A DNA stretch of 64,000 bases, from the NCBI GenBank assembly GCA_951828515.1, contig OX639992.1, positions 5,372,217 through 5,436,216 of the forward strand, read 5' to 3'. The notes beneath the pieces were generated by a model. The model saw only the letters and a list, made by a program, of their open reading frames with translations. It was not told where the DNA came from and searched no databases. The DNA comes from an uncultured Poribacteria bacterium. Its GTDB lineage: Bacteria > Poribacteria > WGA-4E > WGA-3G. Position numbers and translations under genes: made by a program. This document shows positions 2,854-21,132 of the stretch, one piece after another (position 1 is the first letter of the stretch; every line of letters starts with the position of its first letter).

Positions 2854-3004
2854 AGCGTTATAGTTTGTCTTGGATTTCTGACAGTGTTTGAGGATATAGG
2901 AAAATCGAGAGTGGTTTCACACCGTAAAGTTTCCGCATCGGGACGAAATGGGGTTTCACTTCATGGTAATGCCTCCCAAAATTGGTGTGAAGGGTATGTC
3001 AAAA

Positions 3005-3120
3005 GGTCGAAAAAATTACAAATTTAGTTTGACTTTTTGTTTGATTATAGGCACAATTGGGTTATAAAAGAACTATAATATTATAAAATATATTAAATAA
3101 TATATTGACTTATTATAACT
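3005..3120 (+). repeat. AT-rich direct repeat, copy 2
   Basis: Second copy of the block at 2713-2825, ending about 60 bases before the start codon at 3177. It carries TTGACT at about 3103-3108, which could serve as a -35 box for the downstream gene, although the spacing to a -10 is not clear. Confidence 0.45.
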
Positions 3121-3176
3121 TATAAGTAAACTATTTTTCAAGCAAATCGTTTCTATACCACAGGAGAGATAAAATT

Positions 3177-3875
3177 ATGAAATGTAATCTGTTTTTTTCA
3201 CGGAAGACTCGTCAGGCACTACTTATAGCGGCTCCATGTTCACCCCTATGGGCTTGCATTGCAATGCTCGTTTTTGTGCTGCCGGCGATCAATTGCGGTC
3301 CGCCGCCTCAAGGACAGTACCATATCCCTGAAACAGCACTCAAGGCTGCCGAGAAAAACGTAACACCGCCATCAACAGCGGGGAACCAATCCAGCTTACC
3401 CGAGAGCGCGACCGTCCGTTTGGCGGAGCAACCTTACCTGAGAAATACTTTCAAAAACGCTTTCACTGAACCGTTACCTGCCAGTAAAACTGGGCTTGAT
3501 GATTTTTTCGCAAGGACGCGCGGAAAAGTGCAGCACGCGGCTATTGTCTCTGGGGCATCGTTTGATGTGCTGAAAGCATTCATTGCCAATGGGTGGACTC
3601 CGATTGTAATGATCCAATTTCAAGGACGCACCCCGGAAATCTTGCCAGTCTCTGACTATAACGACCAGCTCAGCGAGGTATCTCTTCAAAATCCCACCAG
3701 TCTCAACAAGCGTCGGCTGACATATACGGAGTTTGAGGCAACTTGGAGCAAGAACTCGCGGAACAAATTTGTCTTAATCACGCCACAGCGACTCACTGAA
3801 GTCGACCTTGAGAAAGTCTTAAGCAAATATTTACCTGCGGAAGCGTTCCAGCAGGTTACCATCAGAAGCCGTTAG
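3177..3875 (+). CDS. Exported protein with degenerate C39-like peptidase fold
   Basis: The 232-residue product has an N-terminal export signal (hydrophobic stretch about 27-38) ending in PAINC (Cys40), which may be a weak lipobox although Asn precedes the Cys. The mature part from about residue 110 resembles C39-like papain-fold proteins: a VLKAFIANGWTPIVMI segment, then ILPVSDYND where catalytic proteins have H-x-V-x-x-x-G-Y-D, and YTEFEATWS near the end. The catalytic Cys and His positions are not preserved, so it would be a non-enzymatic envelope relative. ATG 3177 follows CAGGAGAG, a good ribosome site. Function unknown. Confidence 0.5.
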   Translation: MKCNLFFSRKTRQALLIAAPCSPLWACIAMLVFVLPAINCGPPPQGQYHIPETALKAAEKNVTPPSTAGNQSSLPESATVRLAEQPYLRNTFKNAFTEPLPASKTGLDDFFARTRGKVQHAAIVSGASFDVLKAFIANGWTPIVMIQFQGRTPEILPVSDYNDQLSEVSLQNPTSLNKRRLTYTEFEATWSKNSRNKFVLITPQRLTEVDLEKVLSKYLPAEAFQQVTIRSR

Positions 3876-7299: not shown

Positions 7300-7328
7300 G
7301 TGGACCTACCTTCGTACGTTGATTTGGT

Positions 7329-7403
7329 GGTCTGTTGGAACTCTTTCAAAGAACCTTACTTTGCGGGGTGTGTAAGGCTCAAGAAACATCCTGCTTTTGT
7401 TAG
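7329..7403 (+). repeat. Dispersed ~75-bp repeat, copy 2
   Basis: Partner of 190-266, about 84 percent identical by eye. It lies between the paralog 3 terminator and the small membrane gene at 7431. Both copies lie outside genes. Confidence 0.55.
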
Positions 7404-8817: not shown

Positions 8818-8885
8818 TTTAAACTAAGCAGTTTTGAAATCAATTTTTTGTCAGCGCTCAGAAATTAACAGAGAGGCAATTGGTT

Positions 8886-10802
8886 GTGAATAAAAGTACC
8901 AGAAGCATGGTGATTTGGTGGGTAGTTGTTGCTGGACTCGTCGTCCTTGGCATTTATCAATTATTCAACCGCAGAGATCCAGTTTATCAACTCGCGACCT
9001 CTGATTTTCATCAATACATAACGCGCGGTTCATCCCTATTCGAAGGATACCTGGTTTTAGACGAAGAATGGGTAGAAGGACAGTTTAATTATAACATACT
9101 CAATGAAATCCGCACCGAAATTCTGCAGAGCGTGGATCCTGAGGAGCAAGAAACCCATCTCCCGCCAAAATGGCAAGGCGAATTTAGAGCGAGCCGCGAT
9201 GCGATCGATGATTATGACATCCAGGCAAAACTTGACGATAACGGTATTCACTATAACGTCAAGCCACCATCTAAATTCCCACAAGGTTTGCTTATTTTCG
9301 GGACAACGGTTGTGCCGCTACTTATTTTCTTGGGTTTGATGATCTTCCTGTCGCGCCAGATGCAAGGAAGCGGGAACCGAGCCCTATCTTTTGGCAAAAG
9401 CCGAGCTAGACTCCATTCCGAAAACCAAACTAAAGTGACATTTGAAGATGTTGCGGGTGTCGATGAAGCGAAAGAAGCCCTTGAAGAAGTTATTGAATTT
9501 CTAAAGGCACCGAAAAAGTTTGAACGACTCGGTGGTAAAATTCCTAAAGGTGTCCTCCTTATGGGACCTCCAGGGACGGGTAAAACAATGCTTGCCCAGG
9601 CTGTTGCGGGTGAGGCAGATGTCCCGTTCTATAGTATCAGCGGTTCCGATTTCGTTGAGATGTTTGTCGGTGTAGGCGCGTCCCGTGTTCGAGACCTGTT
9701 TGAGACCGGTAAAAAGAATGCCCCGTGTATCATTTTTATTGATGAATTGGATGCTGTCGGTAGACACCGTGGTGCAGGTATCGGTGGTGGACATGATGAA
9801 CGTGAGCAGACCTTAAACCAGCTCCTCGTTGAGATGCAAGGTTTTGAGGCATCCGAAGGTGTGATACTCATCGCGGCGACGAACCGCCCTGATGTTTTAG
9901 ATCCGGCTCTCCTTCGTCCCGGCAGATTCGACCGGCAGATTGTTGTTGACTTACCAGATGTTCGCGGTAGAGAAGCGATACTCAGAGTCCATACAAAAAC
10001 CCCTTATAAGCTTGCTGATAACGTCAATTTGGAAATCTTAGCAAGGGCGACACCAGGGTTCTCAGGAGCAGACCTTGAGAATATGGCAAACGAAGCGGCA
10101 CTGCTTGCCGCACGATGTGACAGAGAAGAAATCGATATGATGTGCTTCGACGAAGCCAAAGACCGCGTACTTATGGGACCCGAACGGCGTAGCCTCGTTA
10201 TTAGCGACGAAGAAAGACGTGTTACGGCTTATCACGAAGCCGGACATGCCCTCATGCTACACTTCGTACCGGAAAGCGATCCAAACTACAAATGTACCAT
10301 TGTTCCACGCGGTAGAGCTCTCGGTGTGACAGCAAAACTCCCTCTCGAAGAACGGCATAATATGAGCAAAAACCGTCTACTCGCTCATATCATTTTTGCC
10401 CTCGGAGGCAGAGTTGCTGAGGAAATTATATTTGGTGAACAAACTACCGGCGCACAAAACGATTTTGAGCAAGCGACAAGCCTCGCACGCCGCATGGTTA
10501 CACAATGGGGTATGAGCCACATGGGACCCCTCACCTACGGTAAACGCGACGAACAGGTCTTCCTCGGTAAAGAATTAAGTGTCCATCAAGATTACAGTGA
10601 AAAAACTGCCATTGAAATCGACAAGGCGGTCCATGATATTGTAACAGAGTGCTATAATAAGGCACGCGAAATCTTGGAAACGAATCTTGAAGGATTAAAG
10701 TTGCTCGCGGACGCACTCTTAGAACGGGAGACGCTTGTTACCGAAGATATTGACGAGATTCTCGGACCCCGGCCACAACTACCAGCAAAACCAGTCGTAT
10801 GA
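8886..10802 (+). CDS. ftsH: ATP-dependent zinc metalloprotease FtsH
   Basis: Membrane-bound AAA+ protease that extracts and degrades membrane and regulatory proteins. I use GTG 8886 (GAGAGG nine bases upstream) rather than TTG 8880, which lies too close to that site; the product is 638 residues, normal for the family. It has a membrane helix at about 8-24, a periplasmic loop, a second helix at about 135-155, Walker A GPPGTGKT (227-234), Walker B IIFIDELD (282-289), the AAA second region of homology ([20 protein letters not shown]) and the zinc motif HEAGH (450-454). It starts an operon with folP and acpS (ATGA overlap with folP). Confidence 0.97.
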
Positions 10803-11623
10803 ACTGTCGTGGTAAATCGCTCACTTTAGGTCGACAGACACACGTAATGGGCATCTTAAACGTCACACCCGACTCTTTTTCCGACGGCGGGTGTTATCTT
10901 GATGTTGAACGAGCGGTCGCACAAGCCGAACTGATGGTAGCGGAAGGTGCGACCCTTATTGATATTGGAGGAGAATCATCCCGCCCCGGGGCATCCGCAG
11001 TGTCCATCAGTGAAGAATTGGCGCGAATCCTACCCGTTATTCGTGCCGTTGTTGACACCGTTGATGTTCTTCTTTCCGTTGACACATATAAAGCTGAAGT
11101 GGCTCGGCACGCACTTGAAGCCGGGGCACATCTTATCAATGACATCACAGCGTTGCACGGGGACACGGCAATGGCGGCGGTTGTATCAGAAATGGAAGCG
11201 GGGCTGATTCTGATGCACATGAAAGGCACACCGCGCACGATGCAACAGGCACCTCAGTATGCCGATGTCGTTAGCGATATTTGTGAGTTGCTTCAGAAGA
11301 GTATCAAGACTGCCGAATCGCAAGGTATTCCCGCCGATCGTATCATTATCGACCCAGGGATCGGATTTGGCAAGACGATACAACACAACCTTGAAATCCT
11401 AAAACGCCTTACGGAGTTCCGAGGGTTACACAAACCTCTGCTCGTTGGGACTTCACGGAAATCATTTATCGGTAACATATTAGATCTCCCTGTAACAGCG
11501 CGCGTTGAAGGAACGACCGCTACAGTGTGTTGGGCTATCGCACACGGCGCAGACATTGTGCGGGTCCATGATGTCAAAGCAAACGTTCGTGCTGCCCGAA
11601 TGACGGATGCACTCTATAGATAA
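10799..11623 (+). CDS. folP: Dihydropteroate synthase
   Basis: Condenses p-aminobenzoate with 6-hydroxymethyl-dihydropterin pyrophosphate in folate synthesis, in the cytoplasm. The 274-residue TIM-barrel protein shows the two family signatures: MGILNVTPDSFSDGG near the N-terminus and LIDIGGESSRPGA about 35 residues later, plus the pterin-binding end strand (LLVGTSRKSFIG). The ATG overlaps the ftsH stop (ATGA), a common ftsH-folP arrangement across bacteria, so translation is probably coupled. Confidence 0.95.
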   Translation: MNCRGKSLTLGRQTHVMGILNVTPDSFSDGGCYLDVERAVAQAELMVAEGATLIDIGGESSRPGASAVSISEELARILPVIRAVVDTVDVLLSVDTYKAEVARHALEAGAHLINDITALHGDTAMAAVVSEMEAGLILMHMKGTPRTMQQAPQYADVVSDICELLQKSIKTAESQGIPADRIIIDPGIGFGKTIQHNLEILKRLTEFRGLHKPLLVGTSRKSFIGNILDLPVTARVEGTTATVCWAIAHGADIVRVHDVKANVRAARMTDALYR

Positions 11624-12020
11624 ACCAATGCACCAGCAAAAAATTCAGGGAATTGGCATTGATATTGTTGAAGTTGAACGGATCCGAGACGCATCCCGTC
11701 GATGGGGATCACGGTTTGAAGAACGCGTCTATACACAGCAAGAACTTGCTTATTGTGGAGATACTCCCTCTCGCTACTGGCGACTCGCCGCTCGTTTTGC
11801 TGCTAAGGAAGCCACACTCAAGGCTCTCGGCACAGGCTTGACTACAGGTATGCGCTGGCAAGATGTAGAAGTTCGGGCGAATACTATCGGGAAACCGGAA
11901 CTCATCCTACACGGTGAAGTTCAACGCTATGCCCAGGAACGCAATATCAGTGCATCCTTTGTCTCTATGTCCCATACAAATGACTATGCTGTCGCACAAG
12001 TTACACTCTGTTCCATATAG
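11607..12020 (+). CDS. acpS: Holo-[acyl-carrier-protein] synthase
   Basis: Transfers 4'-phosphopantetheine from CoA to acyl carrier protein, activating fatty-acid synthesis. The product (137 residues from ATG 11607, or 130 from ATG 11628) shows the family motifs GIGIDIVEVERI with the metal-binding Asp, and RFAAKEATLKALGTG with the catalytic Glu. The closing strand ASFVSMSHTNDYAVAQV is typical. Starting at 11607 gives a 17-bp overlap with folP; starting at 11628 gives a short gap. Either way it is the third gene of the ftsH operon. Confidence 0.93.
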   Translation: MHSIDKPMHQQKIQGIGIDIVEVERIRDASRRWGSRFEERVYTQQELAYCGDTPSRYWRLAARFAAKEATLKALGTGLTTGMRWQDVEVRANTIGKPELILHGEVQRYAQERNISASFVSMSHTNDYAVAQVTLCSI

Positions 12021-12098: not shown

Positions 12099-13211
12099 GT
12101 GAAATACGTCCAAAATTGTGTTCTGACTCTCCTGCCCCGTCTGGTAATTCTCTTTTTTGTTATGAGTAGCACTACTTCAATAGCAAATATGAGAGCATCA
12201 GCAGATGGATTCCTCAAACAGTTACTCGGTGCCGAACATTATGGGATGGGTGGGAGTTTCGCTGGTGCAACCCGTGGTGCGAATGCCTTAGGGAGCAATC
12301 CAGCCGGTATGAGCGCAATAGAGGGAAACCGATTCGTTATTCACGCGACCCGTTTTCCACACACTGTCGCTCTACTTTCCAAACCGAACTCAAATGCCAA
12401 TTATGAAGATTATAGTCGGTATGAGCAGCACTCGTCCGGTGTTGAAACTTTAAATTGGGCACTCCCAGTAGGCAAATTCGGCACGTTTGGATTAGCACTG
12501 GCATTTGAACAAGCCGGTGCGTTTCGGCGAGTCAATTATCTTGGAAAGGCACTTAACAGTTTTCCCGAAAATAACCTTGCGTTCGGTCTCAGTTACGGGG
12601 TAAATCTATTCGGTGGCACAGTTGTCGGTGTAGACACGAAATGGCTTCGATCCAAGGCAGTCGGTATTGACGGCAACGAAGATCTCGGGCACGGATATGC
12701 CTATAATGTAGGCGTTATTCAGCAAGTTGGAGAGGCAATTCAGATTGGTGCTGTCGCCCGAAATTTGAGTAATGGACTCTCCTTTTCTGATACCTCTATC
12801 CCGAATATGATGGAACGCACGATTGTAGCCGGTATCGCATACCAGCGTGAAATATCGGACGTTGCTTTGAGATTCGGCTTAGACGCACATCCGCCTTTCC
12901 GGGATGGTGTGCGAGCAAATATAGGGGTTGAAACGTGGTATCGCCACCAAATTGGGATTCGAATTGGATACCTGAGAGATACACAAAAGCGTTACACACC
13001 TGTATTTCTCTTACAAGATGGCTCATTTGAAACCGAAGAACGGCTCTGGACAGCAGAAGGCATCTGCTTCGGGGTCGGCTTCAGATTCGGAAACCTCATT
13101 CTCAATGCCGCATATACACCGCAATTTACACCTGTCGTGGTAGACGAAGAACGTATCCACATTGTGCAGGGGAAAGCGGTGTATGCTTTTTCAGTCGGTC
13201 AAACCTTTTAG
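12099..13211 (+). CDS. PorV/FadL-like outer-membrane beta-barrel protein
   Basis: The 370-residue precursor starts at GTG 12099 (AAGAGGTAAG upstream) and has a signal peptide ending near SIA. Just after it comes the family block LGAEHYGMGGSFAGATRGANALGSNPAG, cut here into its typical parts: a GMGG-AFxA turn and a NPAGM turn. The rest alternates short amphipathic strands, as expected of a barrel, and ends with a terminal phenylalanine (FSVGQTF) suited to outer-membrane insertion. Related proteins (PorV, PorQ, UPF0164) assist type IX-type secretion or transport hydrophobic substrates. A second such protein begins at 62858. Confidence 0.75.
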   Translation: MKYVQNCVLTLLPRLVILFFVMSSTTSIANMRASADGFLKQLLGAEHYGMGGSFAGATRGANALGSNPAGMSAIEGNRFVIHATRFPHTVALLSKPNSNANYEDYSRYEQHSSGVETLNWALPVGKFGTFGLALAFEQAGAFRRVNYLGKALNSFPENNLAFGLSYGVNLFGGTVVGVDTKWLRSKAVGIDGNEDLGHGYAYNVGVIQQVGEAIQIGAVARNLSNGLSFSDTSIPNMMERTIVAGIAYQREISDVALRFGLDAHPPFRDGVRANIGVETWYRHQIGIRIGYLRDTQKRYTPVFLLQDGSFETEERLWTAEGICFGVGFRFGNLILNAAYTPQFTPVVVDEERIHIVQGKAVYAFSVGQTF

Positions 13212-13416
13212 CAATTAGGACTACAATCGTGACGTATGTCTGACCAGTATAGAACGATAGTGGGAATCGCCCACGCGTCCCACGTTGTAAAGAAATCTCG
13301 ATTTTTGGGAGTCAGATTCAGATTCGGCAAAACGCGCTCGAACCCTTCCAAGCACAACTTCAAGGTCTTGGGATCGCAAAGCCATAGGGCTCATCATGTA
13401 TAATAGGAGGAGGTTC

Positions 13417-13860
13417 ATGATGAAGAACGTTGAAATAAAGTACACACCAACACACGAATGGATTGAATTTCTCAATTCAAGGGAGTGTAATGTTGGGATC
13501 ACCGAACGGATTCAAGAAGTTTACGGTAGTATCATTTTTATAGAGTTACCAATTCCCGGTGAATACGAGCAGGGCGAAATTATTGGACGCGTTGAAACAT
13601 CAGATGGGAGGAATTTCTATATTTATGCCCCGGTAACAGGTGAAGTTTACGAAACCAATGCGGCTCTCGATGATGATATTGAACTCCTCAATCGTTTTCC
13701 AGAAGGTGATGGCTGGATTTGTAAATTCCGGCTTGAGAACCCGAATGAAGTAGACACGCTCCTGAACCGGAAAGAATACGAGGCACATGAAGAAGAAGAA
13801 GTCAATGAAGATGAGTACTTACCAGAAACGAATTTTTACGATAACATTGAGGACTATTGA
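13417..13860 (+). CDS. GcvH-like protein without the lipoyl-lysine
   Basis: The 147-residue product follows glycine cleavage H protein closely: YTPTHEWIEF, VGITERIQEVYGSIIFIELPIPGE and YAPVTGEVYETNAAL, then WICKFRLENPNE. In GcvH the modified lysine lies in ESVKA; here the same place reads ETSDGRN (60-66), with no lysine and an extra residue. It therefore cannot carry lipoate in the usual way. A long acidic tail (HEEEEVNEDEYLPE) is also unlike GcvH. ATG 13417 is chosen because GGAGGAGG (13406-13413) precedes it; the longer frame from 13396 includes that site. No gcvT or gcvP is nearby. Confidence 0.75.
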   Translation: MMKNVEIKYTPTHEWIEFLNSRECNVGITERIQEVYGSIIFIELPIPGEYEQGEIIGRVETSDGRNFYIYAPVTGEVYETNAALDDDIELLNRFPEGDGWICKFRLENPNEVDTLLNRKEYEAHEEEEVNEDEYLPETNFYDNIEDY

Positions 13861-15096: not shown

Positions 15097-15936
15097 ATGT
15101 CACAGACAGAAAAAGTTCGGATTGGGCACAGCCCAGATTCCGACGATGCTTTCATGTTCTATGCTCTCGCCAAAGGTTTAATTCCGACTGATCCTTATGA
15201 GATTGTTCATGTGATTGAAGATATTGAGACCCTGAATCAACGCGCGTTGGCGGCTGAACTTGAAGTTACCGCAATCTCTGTTCACGCCTACGCTTACGTT
15301 GCGAAGGATTACGTGTTCATGCCTTGTGGCGCGAGCATTGGCGATCAGTACGGTCCCCTTGTCGTTTCCAAGTCCCCGATAGACACACTCGCGGGGAAGC
15401 GTATCGCTATTCCCGGCAAAATGACGACCGCCTATCTGACACTTAGCCTATTCCAACCAAATTTTGAGGCAGTCCCTCGCCCCTTTGACCAAATATTAGA
15501 CGCTGTCCAACAGGATGAAGTAGATGCCGGACTCATTATCCATGAAGGACAATTAACCTACGCACGCGAGGGTCTTCACAAAGTCATTGATTTAGGTGAG
15601 TGGTGGTATGAGGAAACAGGGCTACCATTACCGCTCGGTGCGAATGTAATTCGCCGAAACCTTGGCACCGAAAGAATCCGCGAGATAACAGCATTGCTCA
15701 AACAGAGCATCCAGTACTCACTCGAACATCGAGAACACGGTTTGGAGTATGCGATGACTTACGCACGCGACATGGAGACCTCGCTCGCGGATAAATTTGT
15801 GGGAATGTACGTCAATGACTACACGCTCGATTACGGGGAAAAAGGTAGAGCAGGCGTGCGAGAATTGCTCCAGCGCGGTAGCGCAGCGGGTATAATTCCG
15901 CATCGTGTAGAAGCAGAATTTGTCTCGCTTGGATAG
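15097..15936 (+). CDS. MqnD-like protein (futalosine menaquinone pathway)
   Basis: The 279-residue cytoplasmic protein resembles the MqnA/MqnD family with a periplasmic-binding-protein fold: GHSPDSDDAFMFYALAKG near the start, then ALAAELEVTAISVHAYAY, DAGLIIHEGQLTYA and LPLPLGANVI. MqnD cleaves cyclic de-hypoxanthine futalosine to 1,4-dihydroxy-6-naphthoate in menaquinone synthesis. The SPDSDDAF start resembles MqnD's SPCPNDTF motif rather than MqnA. No other mqn gene is in the window, so the assignment to the pathway is from family likeness alone. Confidence 0.78.
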   Translation: MSQTEKVRIGHSPDSDDAFMFYALAKGLIPTDPYEIVHVIEDIETLNQRALAAELEVTAISVHAYAYVAKDYVFMPCGASIGDQYGPLVVSKSPIDTLAGKRIAIPGKMTTAYLTLSLFQPNFEAVPRPFDQILDAVQQDEVDAGLIIHEGQLTYAREGLHKVIDLGEWWYEETGLPLPLGANVIRRNLGTERIREITALLKQSIQYSLEHREHGLEYAMTYARDMETSLADKFVGMYVNDYTLDYGEKGRAGVRELLQRGSAAGIIPHRVEAEFVSLG

Positions 15937-17333: not shown

Positions 17334-18749
17334 ATGACCAACATGCCGAGGCTCGTCGTTGAAGTCTTTGAACACGTGAATTTTCATGGACGCAAGGTTA
17401 CACTTGTTGAATCGATCCCGAACACTGGAGAGATCGGTGCACAAGACATCATCTCTTCAATTAAAATCTACAAGGGACCAGGCTTTAACGCGTCTCCTAA
17501 CTACAAAGCCGTCTTTCATGAGCATGATAACTATAAGGGACGCCGGCTGGTCCTTGCTCCAGGGTTCTATCCAAATATCCATGACATCCCCTACAACTTT
17601 GGGGACGCAATTACAGCTATCAGTTTCAGTCCATCAGCGCATCCAACACCACCGGAGTACGGAGCAGTCCCGGTCATCATCGAGGTGTTCCGTGATGTAG
17701 ATTATACCGGTCAACGGAGTGTTGTCATGCGCGATGTCAGTTCAATGTTCGACATCGGCATGAACGATACCGTTTCATCAATTCGAATCCAGCGCGGTCC
17801 GAGTTTTCCGTTCAGCGGATGTCATATTATTTTCTACGAGCACGTTAACTTTGAAGGGCGACGGTTGAACCTAAACCTAAGCTCACAAGAGTTTCAGTTA
17901 GCACTCCGGAACCTTAGATCACTTCCACATTCGCAATCATTTTCAGATATTATCTCTTCCATAAAAATTGTGCCCTTAGGTGTATTTCGCGTGCTGATTG
18001 TTGTTGGCGATAATTCGACGGGGGAACCAGCTATATTGGAGTCTCTTACCACGGTCGAAGGGTTAGAATTCCAATTTACGACCGTGCATATCAATGACAA
18101 TCCCGATAATCGCGGGGATCCCAACAATGCCATCAAACTCTCAAGTATTACGCTTTCAGAATATGACATTATCTGGTTTACATGGTTTGCTACTGGGCAT
18201 GACGGTGAATATTTCGTTGAAGATGCCGATCAGGCGATTCAGGATTTTGTCCGCAAGGGCGGGATTGTTTGGGCTTCTGCGATGGACAATAATATCACAC
18301 CCCCCGATGGTGTCCATACGACTGAACCTGCATGGCGTGGCGACTGGCTACCGGTGAATCGTCACCCAATTCGTGTGATTAATTCCAACGATGGAAACGT
18401 GAAAATCACTGATGACGGTGAAAAAACGGGTATGTTTACCTGGCCCCATAAGGTGAATGTAGATACACTCGTAACCGACGATCATTGGGTGACAAACGAC
18501 AGAAGTTACCGAAAATTGGCTGTTAGAGAGGATAACGGAGATCCGATTAGTGTGCAGTTACAATGGGGAGACGGGTATTATGTCGCTTTTGCGGTTGATA
18601 CCCGTGACGCATTTCGGACGACTATAGCGAAACCCCTCGTCGAGAATGCCCTCTGTTACTTAGCAAATCTGGCGTGGCAGACTTCCCCACGTCAACCGCT
18701 CAAAGGGCGATATCGGACACACCTGAGCAGCGAGAGAATCTTCCGCTAA
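17334..18749 (+). CDS. Beta/gamma-crystallin protein fused to a ThuA/GATase-like domain
   Basis: The first 220 residues of this 471-residue protein hold four Greek-key motifs, each starting with a strand such as VVEVFEHVNFHGRK, AVFHEHDNYKGRR, IIEVFRDVDYTGQR or IIFYEHVNFEGRR and ending in a calcium-type (D/N)x(I/V/A)(S/T)(S/A)I signature (AQDIISSIKI, FGDAITAISF, MNDTVSSIRI, FSDIISSIKI). That makes two beta/gamma-crystallin domains. The remainder (about 220-450) begins VFRVLIVVGDNSTG and has DIIWFTW and GGIVWASAMDN strands, resembling a ThuA-like class I amidotransferase fold. No signal peptide is seen. AAGGAGCGGG precedes ATG 17334. Confidence 0.7.
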   Translation: MTNMPRLVVEVFEHVNFHGRKVTLVESIPNTGEIGAQDIISSIKIYKGPGFNASPNYKAVFHEHDNYKGRRLVLAPGFYPNIHDIPYNFGDAITAISFSPSAHPTPPEYGAVPVIIEVFRDVDYTGQRSVVMRDVSSMFDIGMNDTVSSIRIQRGPSFPFSGCHIIFYEHVNFEGRRLNLNLSSQEFQLALRNLRSLPHSQSFSDIISSIKIVPLGVFRVLIVVGDNSTGEPAILESLTTVEGLEFQFTTVHINDNPDNRGDPNNAIKLSSITLSEYDIIWFTWFATGHDGEYFVEDADQAIQDFVRKGGIVWASAMDNNITPPDGVHTTEPAWRGDWLPVNRHPIRVINSNDGNVKITDDGEKTGMFTWPHKVNVDTLVTDDHWVTNDRSYRKLAVREDNGDPISVQLQWGDGYYVAFAVDTRDAFRTTIAKPLVENALCYLANLAWQTSPRQPLKGRYRTHLSSERIFR

Positions 18750-18831: not shown

Positions 18832-21132
18832 ATGCGTTTCATTGCTGCTATCATTTTCTTAATAGCTGTAGCAGTCGCTGTTGGCTGGTTTGCCTATCAA
18901 AACCTTGACCGTTTTGGACAGAACCAAGTCATACGGTGGTTAACAGTTATTCTCTTCGTATTATTTGCGAGTCTGGCTACCTTTGCCGCGACAGTTATTC
19001 GCTATCGTATACCGAAAGCCGACATTGCACTCGTGCGAACTGGGGGTGCCAGAGAGAAAATTCGTATCACTGGTGGTCTCTGGGTTAACACCATTATCCA
19101 TGAAATCAAAGAAATATCTCTGAATACCATGCGTATTGAGGTTATACGAGAGGGCCCGGAGGCTTTGATTACGTATGACTTTAACCGCGGTGATGTTGAA
19201 GTTGTTTTCTACCTTAAAGTCAAACCTGAAGAAAATGATATTCTACGCGCGGCGCAAGCACTCGGCGATAAGTCTATGACTCCAGAAACGGTCCGAGAGT
19301 TAATTGAACCAAAACTCGAGGGCGCGTTACGAAGTGTTGCAGCCGAAAGTCACATTCAGGATCTCCTCCAAAAACGCCAAGAGTTTGCTGAAAAGGTGCA
19401 ATCCGCATGCGGTGAAGATCTCGAAATACAAAACGGATTAACCCTTGAAACGGTATCAATTATTCGGGTGGATCAGACCCCCGTTGAAACACTCGATGCG
19501 GAAAACCGATTCGATGCAGTCGGTATCCGTGAAATTACTGAAATTACGGCTGAGCAGGAACGAGAAAAAGAACGGATTGTACAGGAAAAAGAGGTCGCGA
19601 TTGTTCAAATTGAGGTCGATGCCCGAATACAGAAACTCGAAGCTGAACAACAACAGGCATGGGCAGAATCCGACCAACAGAAAAATATTGCTATCTATGC
19701 GGCTGAGCGGGAAGCGGAGACCCTCAAATTCCAGTTTGAGATGGAACAGGGTGTGCAAGAACGTGAATACGAGATGAAGCAGGAGGTTGAGCGCGCACGT
19801 ATTACACAGGAACAGGTCATCCAAGAACGCGAAATTGAGATGAACCGTGACATCGAAGTTGCTCGCGTCCAACAGGAACAGATTGTTGCTGAACGTGAAA
19901 TCGAGAAAAACCTCATTGTTGAAACACAACAGATTGAGCAATCCAAAGTTGTCCAGCTCGCCGAAATTGAACAACATCTCGTTGTTCAAATGCAGAGAAT
20001 TGCCCAGGAACAGGCAATTACTGTTCGTGAAATAGAGAAAGTATTGACGGTCGAGAAAGCCCGTATTGCCCAAGAAGAAGGGGTTATGCTACGGGATATT
20101 GCGCGTGAGTTGGCAGTGCAAACGACACGTTTCAGTCAAGAGCAACAGGTCCAACAGCGTGAAATCGAGAAGAATCTCGTCGTCGAAACCGCACAGATTG
20201 ACCAGATGCGACAAGTTGAACTCGCCGAGATTGCTAAAACATTAGCAGTAGACATAACCCGAATTGCGAGAGATCAACAGGTTGAAACGCGAGAAATTGA
20301 AAAACAACTCGTTGTGGAGAGAGCCCGTATTGCCCAAGAAGAAGGCGTATCCTTGCGGGATATTGCGCGCGACTTAACAGTCGAGACGACTCGTTTCAGT
20401 CAGGAGCAACAGGTCCAACAGCGTGAGATCGAGAAAAACCTCGTCGTCGAAACCGCACAGATTGACCAGATGCGTCAGGTTTCACTCGCCGAGATTGCTA
20501 AAACCTTGACGGTGGAGCAGACCCGTATCAATCAGGAATTACAGGTTGCCTTAACCGACGAGGATCGGAAGATTGATATCGCCAATAAACAGCAGGTAAC
20601 GGCACTTGCAGAGAAAGAGCAGTTAGTTGCGGAAGCTGAACGTATGGGTGCGGAAGTGGGTGTGATGGCAACAGAACAGGTGAAAGAAGCCGAATGGCAG
20701 CGTGAGGTGGCAATCATTGGTGCTGAAGCACAAGCACAACCGATTGAACGTCTTGCCGATGCTGTCCTTGCCGAGGCGCGTGCGAAGGCACAAGGCGAGA
20801 TGGCAGAGTATGAAGCTCGAAATGTTGCTGAACAACGCGTCCTTGTGCAAGAGGCAATCTTAGAGCTCATTGATGAAGCCTCTGATATTGTTGAGGAACT
20901 CATGAAACCTGTTGAGAAAATCGATAGCATCAAGATACTGGATATGGGAAATAACGATGGGCAAGGCGGTCTCAACCGAAGCAATATGGGTAGGCTCGCA
21001 AATGCCTTGCTTGATACGGGTGCTATCTCCCCCATGCTTAAGGAACTGTTTAACTTTGCGGATGTAGACGCCCAGCAGATTACAGACAAAATTGCCGAAT
21101 ATCTATCTGACCTCGTCAATCGTCCGAGTTAA
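18832..21132 (+). CDS. Flotillin-like SPFH protein with twelve 22-residue repeats
   Basis: The 766-residue protein has two N-terminal membrane helices (about 4-21 and 36-57), an SPFH/band-7 domain (about 60-240, starting IRYRIPKADIALVRTGGAREK) and a very long helical arm. Residues 310-573 are exactly twelve 22-residue repeats with no insertion, of the form EREIEKxLxVExxRIxQEQxV. This two-times-11 (hendecad) pattern implies an almost straight coiled coil. A four-repeat block (264 bp) is itself duplicated at DNA level (20061 and 20325). The YqiK/flotillin family organises membrane microdomains as large oligomers. AGGAG precedes ATG 18832. Confidence 0.85.
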   Translation: MRFIAAIIFLIAVAVAVGWFAYQNLDRFGQNQVIRWLTVILFVLFASLATFAATVIRYRIPKADIALVRTGGAREKIRITGGLWVNTIIHEIKEISLNTMRIEVIREGPEALITYDFNRGDVEVVFYLKVKPEENDILRAAQALGDKSMTPETVRELIEPKLEGALRSVAAESHIQDLLQKRQEFAEKVQSACGEDLEIQNGLTLETVSIIRVDQTPVETLDAENRFDAVGIREITEITAEQEREKERIVQEKEVAIVQIEVDARIQKLEAEQQQAWAESDQQKNIAIYAAEREAETLKFQFEMEQGVQEREYEMKQEVERARITQEQVIQEREIEMNRDIEVARVQQEQIVAEREIEKNLIVETQQIEQSKVVQLAEIEQHLVVQMQRIAQEQAITVREIEKVLTVEKARIAQEEGVMLRDIARELAVQTTRFSQEQQVQQREIEKNLVVETAQIDQMRQVELAEIAKTLAVDITRIARDQQVETREIEKQLVVERARIAQEEGVSLRDIARDLTVETTRFSQEQQVQQREIEKNLVVETAQIDQMRQVSLAEIAKTLTVEQTRINQELQVALTDEDRKIDIANKQQVTALAEKEQLVAEAERMGAEVGVMATEQVKEAEWQREVAIIGAEAQAQPIERLADAVLAEARAKAQGEMAEYEARNVAEQRVLVQEAILELIDEASDIVEELMKPVEKIDSIKILDMGNNDGQGGLNRSNMGRLANALLDTGAISPMLKELFNFADVDAQQITDKIAEYLSDLVNRPS
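20052..20510 (+). repeat. 264-bp tandem duplication inside the SPFH gene
   Basis: Segments beginning at 20061 and 20325 (both CCGTATTGCCCAAGAAGAAG) align for nearly 200 bases with an exact 264-bp offset, equal to four 22-codon repeats. The high DNA similarity implies recent expansion of the coiled-coil arm. Confidence 0.85.

Follow-up and report, generated by a model that had tools for sequence, protein, structure and literature searches.

Can a glycine cleavage H protein survive the loss of the group it is built to carry? A 64,000-nucleotide stretch of contig OX639992.1 from an uncultured Poribacteria bacterium (hereafter the window) raises this question, since it encodes a 147-residue relative of GcvH (hereafter the variant) in which the lipoyl lysine is replaced. 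We favour, with moderate confidence, the reading that the variant is a sister copy on the GcvH fold, free of lipoate and outside glycine cleavage, that works as a binding module. The gene and its two unusual segments are as follows.

13417..13860, plus strand: GcvH-like gene, putatively lipoate-free, 147 residues (open reading frame; Pfam GCV_H; model with Z scores to solved H proteins)
13585..13626, plus strand: altered lipoyl hairpin, residues 57-70, GRVETSDGRNFYIY, with one residue more than the GcvH hairpin (phmmer alignments with 2ka7, 1zko, 1dxm and 3a8i; column counts)
13786..13857, plus strand: acidic C-terminal tail spiked with aromatic residues, residues 124-147 (predicted local distance difference test, pLDDT; tail composition of relatives; tail ratio of nonsynonymous to synonymous substitution rates, dN/dS)

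The lipoyl position and the protein around it

In a sequence alignment with solved H proteins, the ESVKAT of pea H protein falls opposite ETSDGRN in the window protein; the lysine column holds Asp63 and the hairpin gains one residue. The replacement holds across the family. In an alignment of 92 sequences (34 variants, 42 ordinary poribacterial H proteins and 16 other H proteins), this column is Asp in 19 variants, Thr in five, Glu in four, and Ala, Asn and Ser in two each, and it is Lys in 42/42 ordinary poribacterial and 16/16 other H proteins. That alignment leaves out L079 (another GCV_H type), L120 (a viral-collection match without the lysine), the canonical L055 and L109, and all but one of the 22 near-complete genus-level variant loci (L and G numbers are our handles for loci and genomes). 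No lysine occupies the aligned position in any of 55 variant sequences, namely the window, the 22 genus-level loci and 32 deep loci, a count that includes some genomes under two names, such as L011 and L087. Two of them, L022 and L064, have a lysine two columns past the site and not at the site itself. The 22 genus-level variants, 67-92% identical to that of the window, all read ETSDG or ETSEG, and the ESVK motif is present in 44 of 44 canonical poribacterial rows retrieved, two of which (L028 and L109) are the same gene. A frameshift, annotation or assembly error masking the lysine was rejected because the 55 sequences, from many genomes, agree.

The protein around this site remains recognizably an H protein. 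It scores 85.3 bits against Pfam GCV_H (PF01597), passing the gathering cut-off of 22.2, and it fails both the NCBIfam gcvH equivalog TIGR00527 (90 bits, cut-off 115.85) and TIGR03077, not_gcvH (61.2 bits, cut-off 144.05). The best AlphaFold2 model has a mean pLDDT of 85.2, with residues 134-145 below 50; the five models were uneven (means of 85, 81, 78, 42 and 41), and the input alignment was shallow, its 14 rows comprising 13 variants and one ordinary verrucomicrobial GcvH. The lipoyl-site region is modelled as a plain hairpin, with strands 55-61 and 66-70 and a block pLDDT of 94-95. Foldseek with the best model returned H proteins first, 1onl at E 3.2e-12. VIA-align, which gave whole-chain matches only, those listed mostly covering residues 4-128 and thus leaving out the tail, superposed the model on 1onl with a Z of 20.3, at 1.5 Å over 123 residues and 37% identity. 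By sequence and model, the H-protein fold is kept, as are the H-protein residues H13, E14, W15, G75, N81 and W100. An earlier note on this stretch had described an intact GcvH fold signature, an ESVKA site reading ETSDGRN and an added acidic tail, and all three descriptions stand; the lysine at the lipoyl position that it named as a refutation is absent both from the sequence alignment with solved H proteins and from the family alignment. The lipoyl lysine has been lost, and we hold, with the moderate confidence given to the favoured reading, that the variant no longer carries lipoate.

Could the old site serve another chemistry? A variant carrying a different covalent group, or binding a small ligand in the former lipoate cleft, would fit the conserved HEW motif (Glu14 in 33 of 34 variants) and the frequent acidic residue at the lysine position (Asp in 19 and Glu in four of 34). 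However, that position varies among Asp, Thr, Glu, Ala, Asn and Ser, which argues against a modified residue there. Cysteine fares no better: in a 20-sequence alignment counted by eye, Cys102 occurs in nine and Cys24 in three family sequences, so neither is a general attachment site. We consider a carrier or sensor of this kind unlikely.

In the tail, residues 134-145 are predicted to be disordered, and an acidic C-terminal tail is found in all 32 deep variants, with 10-18 acidic residues within the final 17-32 positions. Every one of these tails holds Tyr or Phe, and 28 of the 32 are without Lys or Arg. Many end in an acidic residue followed by Tyr or Phe; since several do not, no SSB-like or tubulin-like terminal motif is claimed.

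Ten residues are present in at least 80% of variants and in less than 20% of canonical poribacterial copies: Thr10, Thr12, Glu30, Arg31, Gly37, Glu54, Gly64, Glu96, Tyr124 and Glu125 (the window protein has His instead of Tyr at 124). Gly64 is part of the plain hairpin, and the tail starts with residues 124-125. Thr10, Thr12, Gly37 and Glu96 are common among the 16 other H proteins as well and are probably old states. A first list of variant-specific docking residues was partly dropped because some were common in other H proteins; the favoured reading did not rest on it. Glu30, Arg31 and Glu54, which are particular to this family, are better candidates for a putative new docking face.

As for the gene itself, the open reading frame is taken from the ATG at 13417, with further in-frame ATGs at 13396 and 13420, and the stop codon ends at 13860; AGGAGGAGG lies at 13405-13413, directly 5' of the start. 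A promoter scan gave a single site, on the opposite strand, no terminator was found, and a tRNA scan gave nothing informative.

Distribution, ancestry and selection in Poribacteria

A profile of the variant matched 76 of 84 Poribacteria genomes at 181.9 bits or more, the next best match scoring 132.6 bits; the variant sequence was read for 32 of the 76 and the remainder were assigned by profile score. G051 holds the variant as a 71-residue fragment. With the same profile, the variant was not found in G010, G017, G022, G024, G027, G028 and G066. Four of these absences say little, because the neighbouring porV was also not found, or gave only matches below 26 bits, in G022, G066 and G010, and because yigZ runs off the contig end in G017. 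The absences in G027 and G028 (both genomes of one genus) and in G024 we take as real: the variant is missing though the flanking upstream genes, including yigZ, are present. At L126 (G028, 7303-7375) and L127 (G027) the region from ftsH to crystallin is colinear, the variant being absent between yigZ and a methyltransferase. L127 also carries tandem extra copies of folP (partial) and acpS, possibly an artefact of assembly.

In a tree of 77 rows, a branch with support of 100/98 sets the 34 variants apart from the others, and a single change was found in 100% of 200 bootstrap trees. The tree rests on 136 columns and leaves out the canonical L055, L104 and L109 together with 21 of the 22 near-complete genus-level variants; L079 is included and assigned to no group. 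Its rooting is uncertain because L079 and the verrucomicrobial GcvH, both long rows, join at the root. The split between variant and canonical copies is well supported by these alignments, and a single origin near the base of the phylum would be the simplest reading of them. We regard the variant as an ancient sister copy of GcvH, related to it by fold and descent.

The variant is under purifying selection within the genus. Among the window gene and 22 genus-level genes, the median dN/dS was 0.065 for the whole gene (101 of 253 pairs with usable dS) and 0.046 for the tail alone (83 of 253 pairs usable), and both hairpin and tail are strongly conserved among the 22 near-complete loci. A pseudogene was rejected on the whole-gene value. 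As 76 of 84 genomes of the phylum carry the variant under purifying selection, it is real and not a product of chance or assembly error. A redundant relic heading for loss would account for its absence from G027, G028 and G024 despite the flanking genes, but the low dN/dS, the spread over the phylum and the conserved hairpin and tail make this explanation very improbable.

Some observations concern GcvH-like genes elsewhere. A scan of genome contigs returned 23 loci from Poribacteria and, from elsewhere, a single ordinary GcvH of verrucomicrobial origin, and the lysine was kept in 15 of 16 viral-collection GcvH matches. L120, on an IMG/VR contig, encodes at 3001-3288 a GcvH-like protein with Asp at the lysine position (TVDET, by eye). 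In the plasmid collection 157 records matched, a match count only, and sampling outside Poribacteria is thin. In G012, L079 (1370-2215 and 5300-6031, minus strand) represents another GCV_H-like type, two larger proteins of 281 and 243 residues, both without lysine at the aligned place (the first judged by eye). The pair flanks genes whose products, judged by eye, resemble an NrfD-type membrane/multihaem protein and a 4Fe-4S protein. In the open-licence literature we recognized neither a bacterial GcvH without the lysine nor Poribacteria with glycine cleavage.

Glycine cleavage, lipoate and the gene neighbourhood

The earlier note had remarked that no gcv genes are nearby, which is right locally. 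The window genome, a single contig of 5.85 Mb, contains one further GCV_H match, a separate lysine-bearing gcvH of 145 bits reading ESVKAA, in a gcvT/gcvH/gcvP cluster about 650 kb from the variant; lipA is about 300 kb away. Most variant-carrying genomes likewise hold an ordinary GcvH. Six genomes (G001, G002, G003, G004, G009 and G011) have no PF01597 match besides the variant; in them gcvP was not found and no gcvT scored above cut-off, G009 and G011 having sub-cut-off GCV_T relatives. Conversely, G028 has gcvT, gcvH and gcvP and not the variant. Each therefore occurs without the other and, because it is kept in six genomes without gcvP or another GcvH, the variant does not depend on glycine cleavage; a place for it in that system was rejected on the same evidence. 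An annotation based on Pfam only would label the variant a glycine cleavage H protein, as it passes the GCV_H cut-off, and would thereby assign part of a pathway to some species in which that pathway was not found. Three further genomes have only the variant copy: G005 (79% complete), G048 (81%) and G055 (86%). The gcvH of G005 was probably missed by the assembly because gcvP and gcvT matches exceed the cut-off there.

Lipoate use gives a similar picture. In G003, G004, G009 and G011 no LipA scored above cut-off (no match in G003, weak matches of 19-33 bits in the others), a 2-oxoacid dehydrogenase E2 was not found, and the model for an LplA-type ligase, a weak test, gave no match; LipB and LipS-type synthases were not searched for. 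Completeness is 91-95% for G004, G009 and G011 and 76% for G003. G001 and G002, which lack a detected gcvP, do have LipA and E2. From this gene content, the variant is probably independent of lipoate.

These data bear on the possibility that the variant is a decoy H protein, regulating glycine cleavage or lipoylation by occupying the H sites of GcvT, GcvP, Lpd, LipA or octanoyl transferase without accepting the group. The retained fold and many retained H-protein residues would suit a decoy, as would the ordinary GcvH of most carriers and the LipA and E2 of G001 and G002; human LIAS has also been solved in complex with H protein (title of 8ugo). Nevertheless, six carriers have neither gcvP nor another GCV_H match, four of them also being without LipA above cut-off, E2 or an LplA-type match; G028 keeps gcvT, gcvH and gcvP without the variant; and in the window genome both the gcv cluster and lipA are distant. 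We give a decoy little credence. Of the earlier note's proposal of a scaffold or regulator, the first part fits, as an inference, and the second, taken as regulation of glycine cleavage or lipoylation, is disfavoured, since the variant persists in genomes where neither system was found.

The variant also has regular neighbours. Those in the window are the following.

8880-10802, plus strand: ftsH (named by eye from the translation; synteny)
10799-11623, plus strand: folP (named by eye from the translation; synteny)
11607-12020, plus strand: acpS (Pfam ACPS; synteny)
12099..13211, plus strand: PorV/PorQ-family-like protein, probable outer-membrane barrel (NCBIfam PorV_fam 69.8 bits, cut-off of 90 not reached; no Pfam match)
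13236..13381, plus strand: yigZ/UPF0029 remnant (tblastn with the intact L005 copy, which is UPF0029)
15097-15936: menaquinone biosynthesis protein (PF02621; near the variant in 34 of 55 loci)
17334-18749: 471-residue protein with beta/gamma-crystallin domains (Pfam Crystall)
18832-21132: long coiled, flotillin-like protein (named by eye)

The usual order is ftsH-folP-acpS-porV-(yigZ)-variant. Among 55 variant loci, which leave out the fragment L025 and L079, porV is a neighbour in 50, folP in 45, ftsH in 44, acpS in 41 and an open reading frame of the yigZ family in 35. The loci without porV are L006, L060, L063, L064 and L073; the upstream sequence amounts to about 0.6 kb or less in L060 and L073. 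Upstream of the variant, yigZ gives an uninterrupted match in 32 loci and a partial or broken one in eight, the window included, and in the other 15 no match occurs over a stretch of at most 2.6 kb; among the 23 loci where it is broken, partial or not found, L073 and L089 have less than 1.2 kb of upstream sequence. The window remnant corresponds to residues 1-25 and 174-196 of an intact relative, in different frames and with the middle missing. A yigZ copy with a similar internal gap occurs at L011/L087, and some relatives show no yigZ there. Each on one of the two deepest variant branches, G001 has the order yigZ-variant-prmA and G002 already has porV and yigZ as neighbours. In G003 and G004 the variant stands without any gene of the block. 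YigZ as an obligate partner was rejected, as each gene has been lost without the other (G027, G028 and G024 keep yigZ only).

The steady company of porV, ftsH and yigZ-family frames, with porV and yigZ in place in deep-branching G002, could indicate joint work with PorV-like, YigZ or FtsH proteins in envelope or translation quality control. The associations come apart, however. The 23 loci in which yigZ is broken, partial or not found keep the variant, G027, G028 and G024 keep yigZ without it, and G003, G004 and L006 have the variant and upstream sequence but no porV; the block may be ancestral order only. Such a partnership is therefore, in our judgement, improbable.

Favoured reading and known systems

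Under the favoured reading, the variant would be a cytoplasmic binding module, an adaptor or scaffold. Its barrel domain would bind a partner protein by way of Glu30, Arg31 and Glu54, and the flexible acidic-aromatic tail might hold a basic partner or serve as a short recognition motif. Several points weigh against this reading. The claim of no lipoate use rests on draft genomes that are 76-95% complete and on few family models, among which the LplA-type model exceeded its cut-off in only three of 14 controls and gave no match in G001, a genome with LipA and E2. Thr10, Thr12, Gly37 and Glu96, being shared with other H proteins, are no sign of a new surface. The loss in G027, G028 and G024 means that the variant is not essential everywhere. 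Finally, the conserved neighbours may reflect ancestral gene order only, and the variant may have a non-lipoyl chemical role. If the favoured reading is right, this is a clear case of a swinging-arm carrier that a whole phylum has retained with its fold but without its arm, and other uses of the H-protein fold become directly testable in a small protein.

Among known systems, GcvH itself is closest in structure, sharing the whole fold (the 1onl match above) and most structural motifs. The variant differs from it in the replaced lipoyl lysine, the longer hairpin, the acidic tail and the sub-cut-off NCBIfam gcvH score, and in its presence in genomes where gcvP and gcvT were not found. It is not filed as GcvH because the defining lysine is missing. 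LbpA, as described in PMC6067878, is a GcvH paralogue of Hdr-like sulfur oxidation and so has a job outside glycine cleavage; the 95 LbpA sequences aligned there keep the lysine, unlike the variant, and their genes lie within or close to hdr-like clusters.

GcvH-L, from SirTM/macrodomain operons, has a GcvH-like fold, and its structure 5a35 matches the variant model at Z 14.6. This protein is reportedly both lipoylated, its lipoyl lysine being present, and ADP-ribosylated, in operons with a sirtuin and a macrodomain protein. The variant differs in being without that lysine, and none of the seven window neighbours scanned with Pfam is a sirtuin, a macrodomain protein or a ligase. TIGR03077, which we take to be a chlamydial H-like protein, is likewise a non-canonical H-like family, but the variant is far under the cut-off of its model.

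The nearest precedent is Simiate/FAM206A (ABITRAM) of eukaryotes, compared here by description only. Simiate is not known to have the lipoyl lysine. The variant would be a bacterial counterpart of Simiate if the cofactor had been given up once, near the base of the phylum, and the fold had turned into an acid-tailed adaptor dedicated to some core process of the cell, such as envelope biogenesis or the docking of a protease next to PorV and FtsH, kept even in lineages without detected glycine cleavage or lipoate use; we offer this as speculation with an outside chance of being correct. According to PMC3859600, Simiate probably descended from an H protein, all its orthologues share hydrophobic and acidic residues clustered at the C terminus, and it is absent from bacteria and archaea (PMC3859600). 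As far as that description goes, Simiate and the variant are alike in their relation to the H protein and in the acidic C-terminal cluster, and they differ in that the variant forms a separate bacterial clade alongside ordinary GcvH.
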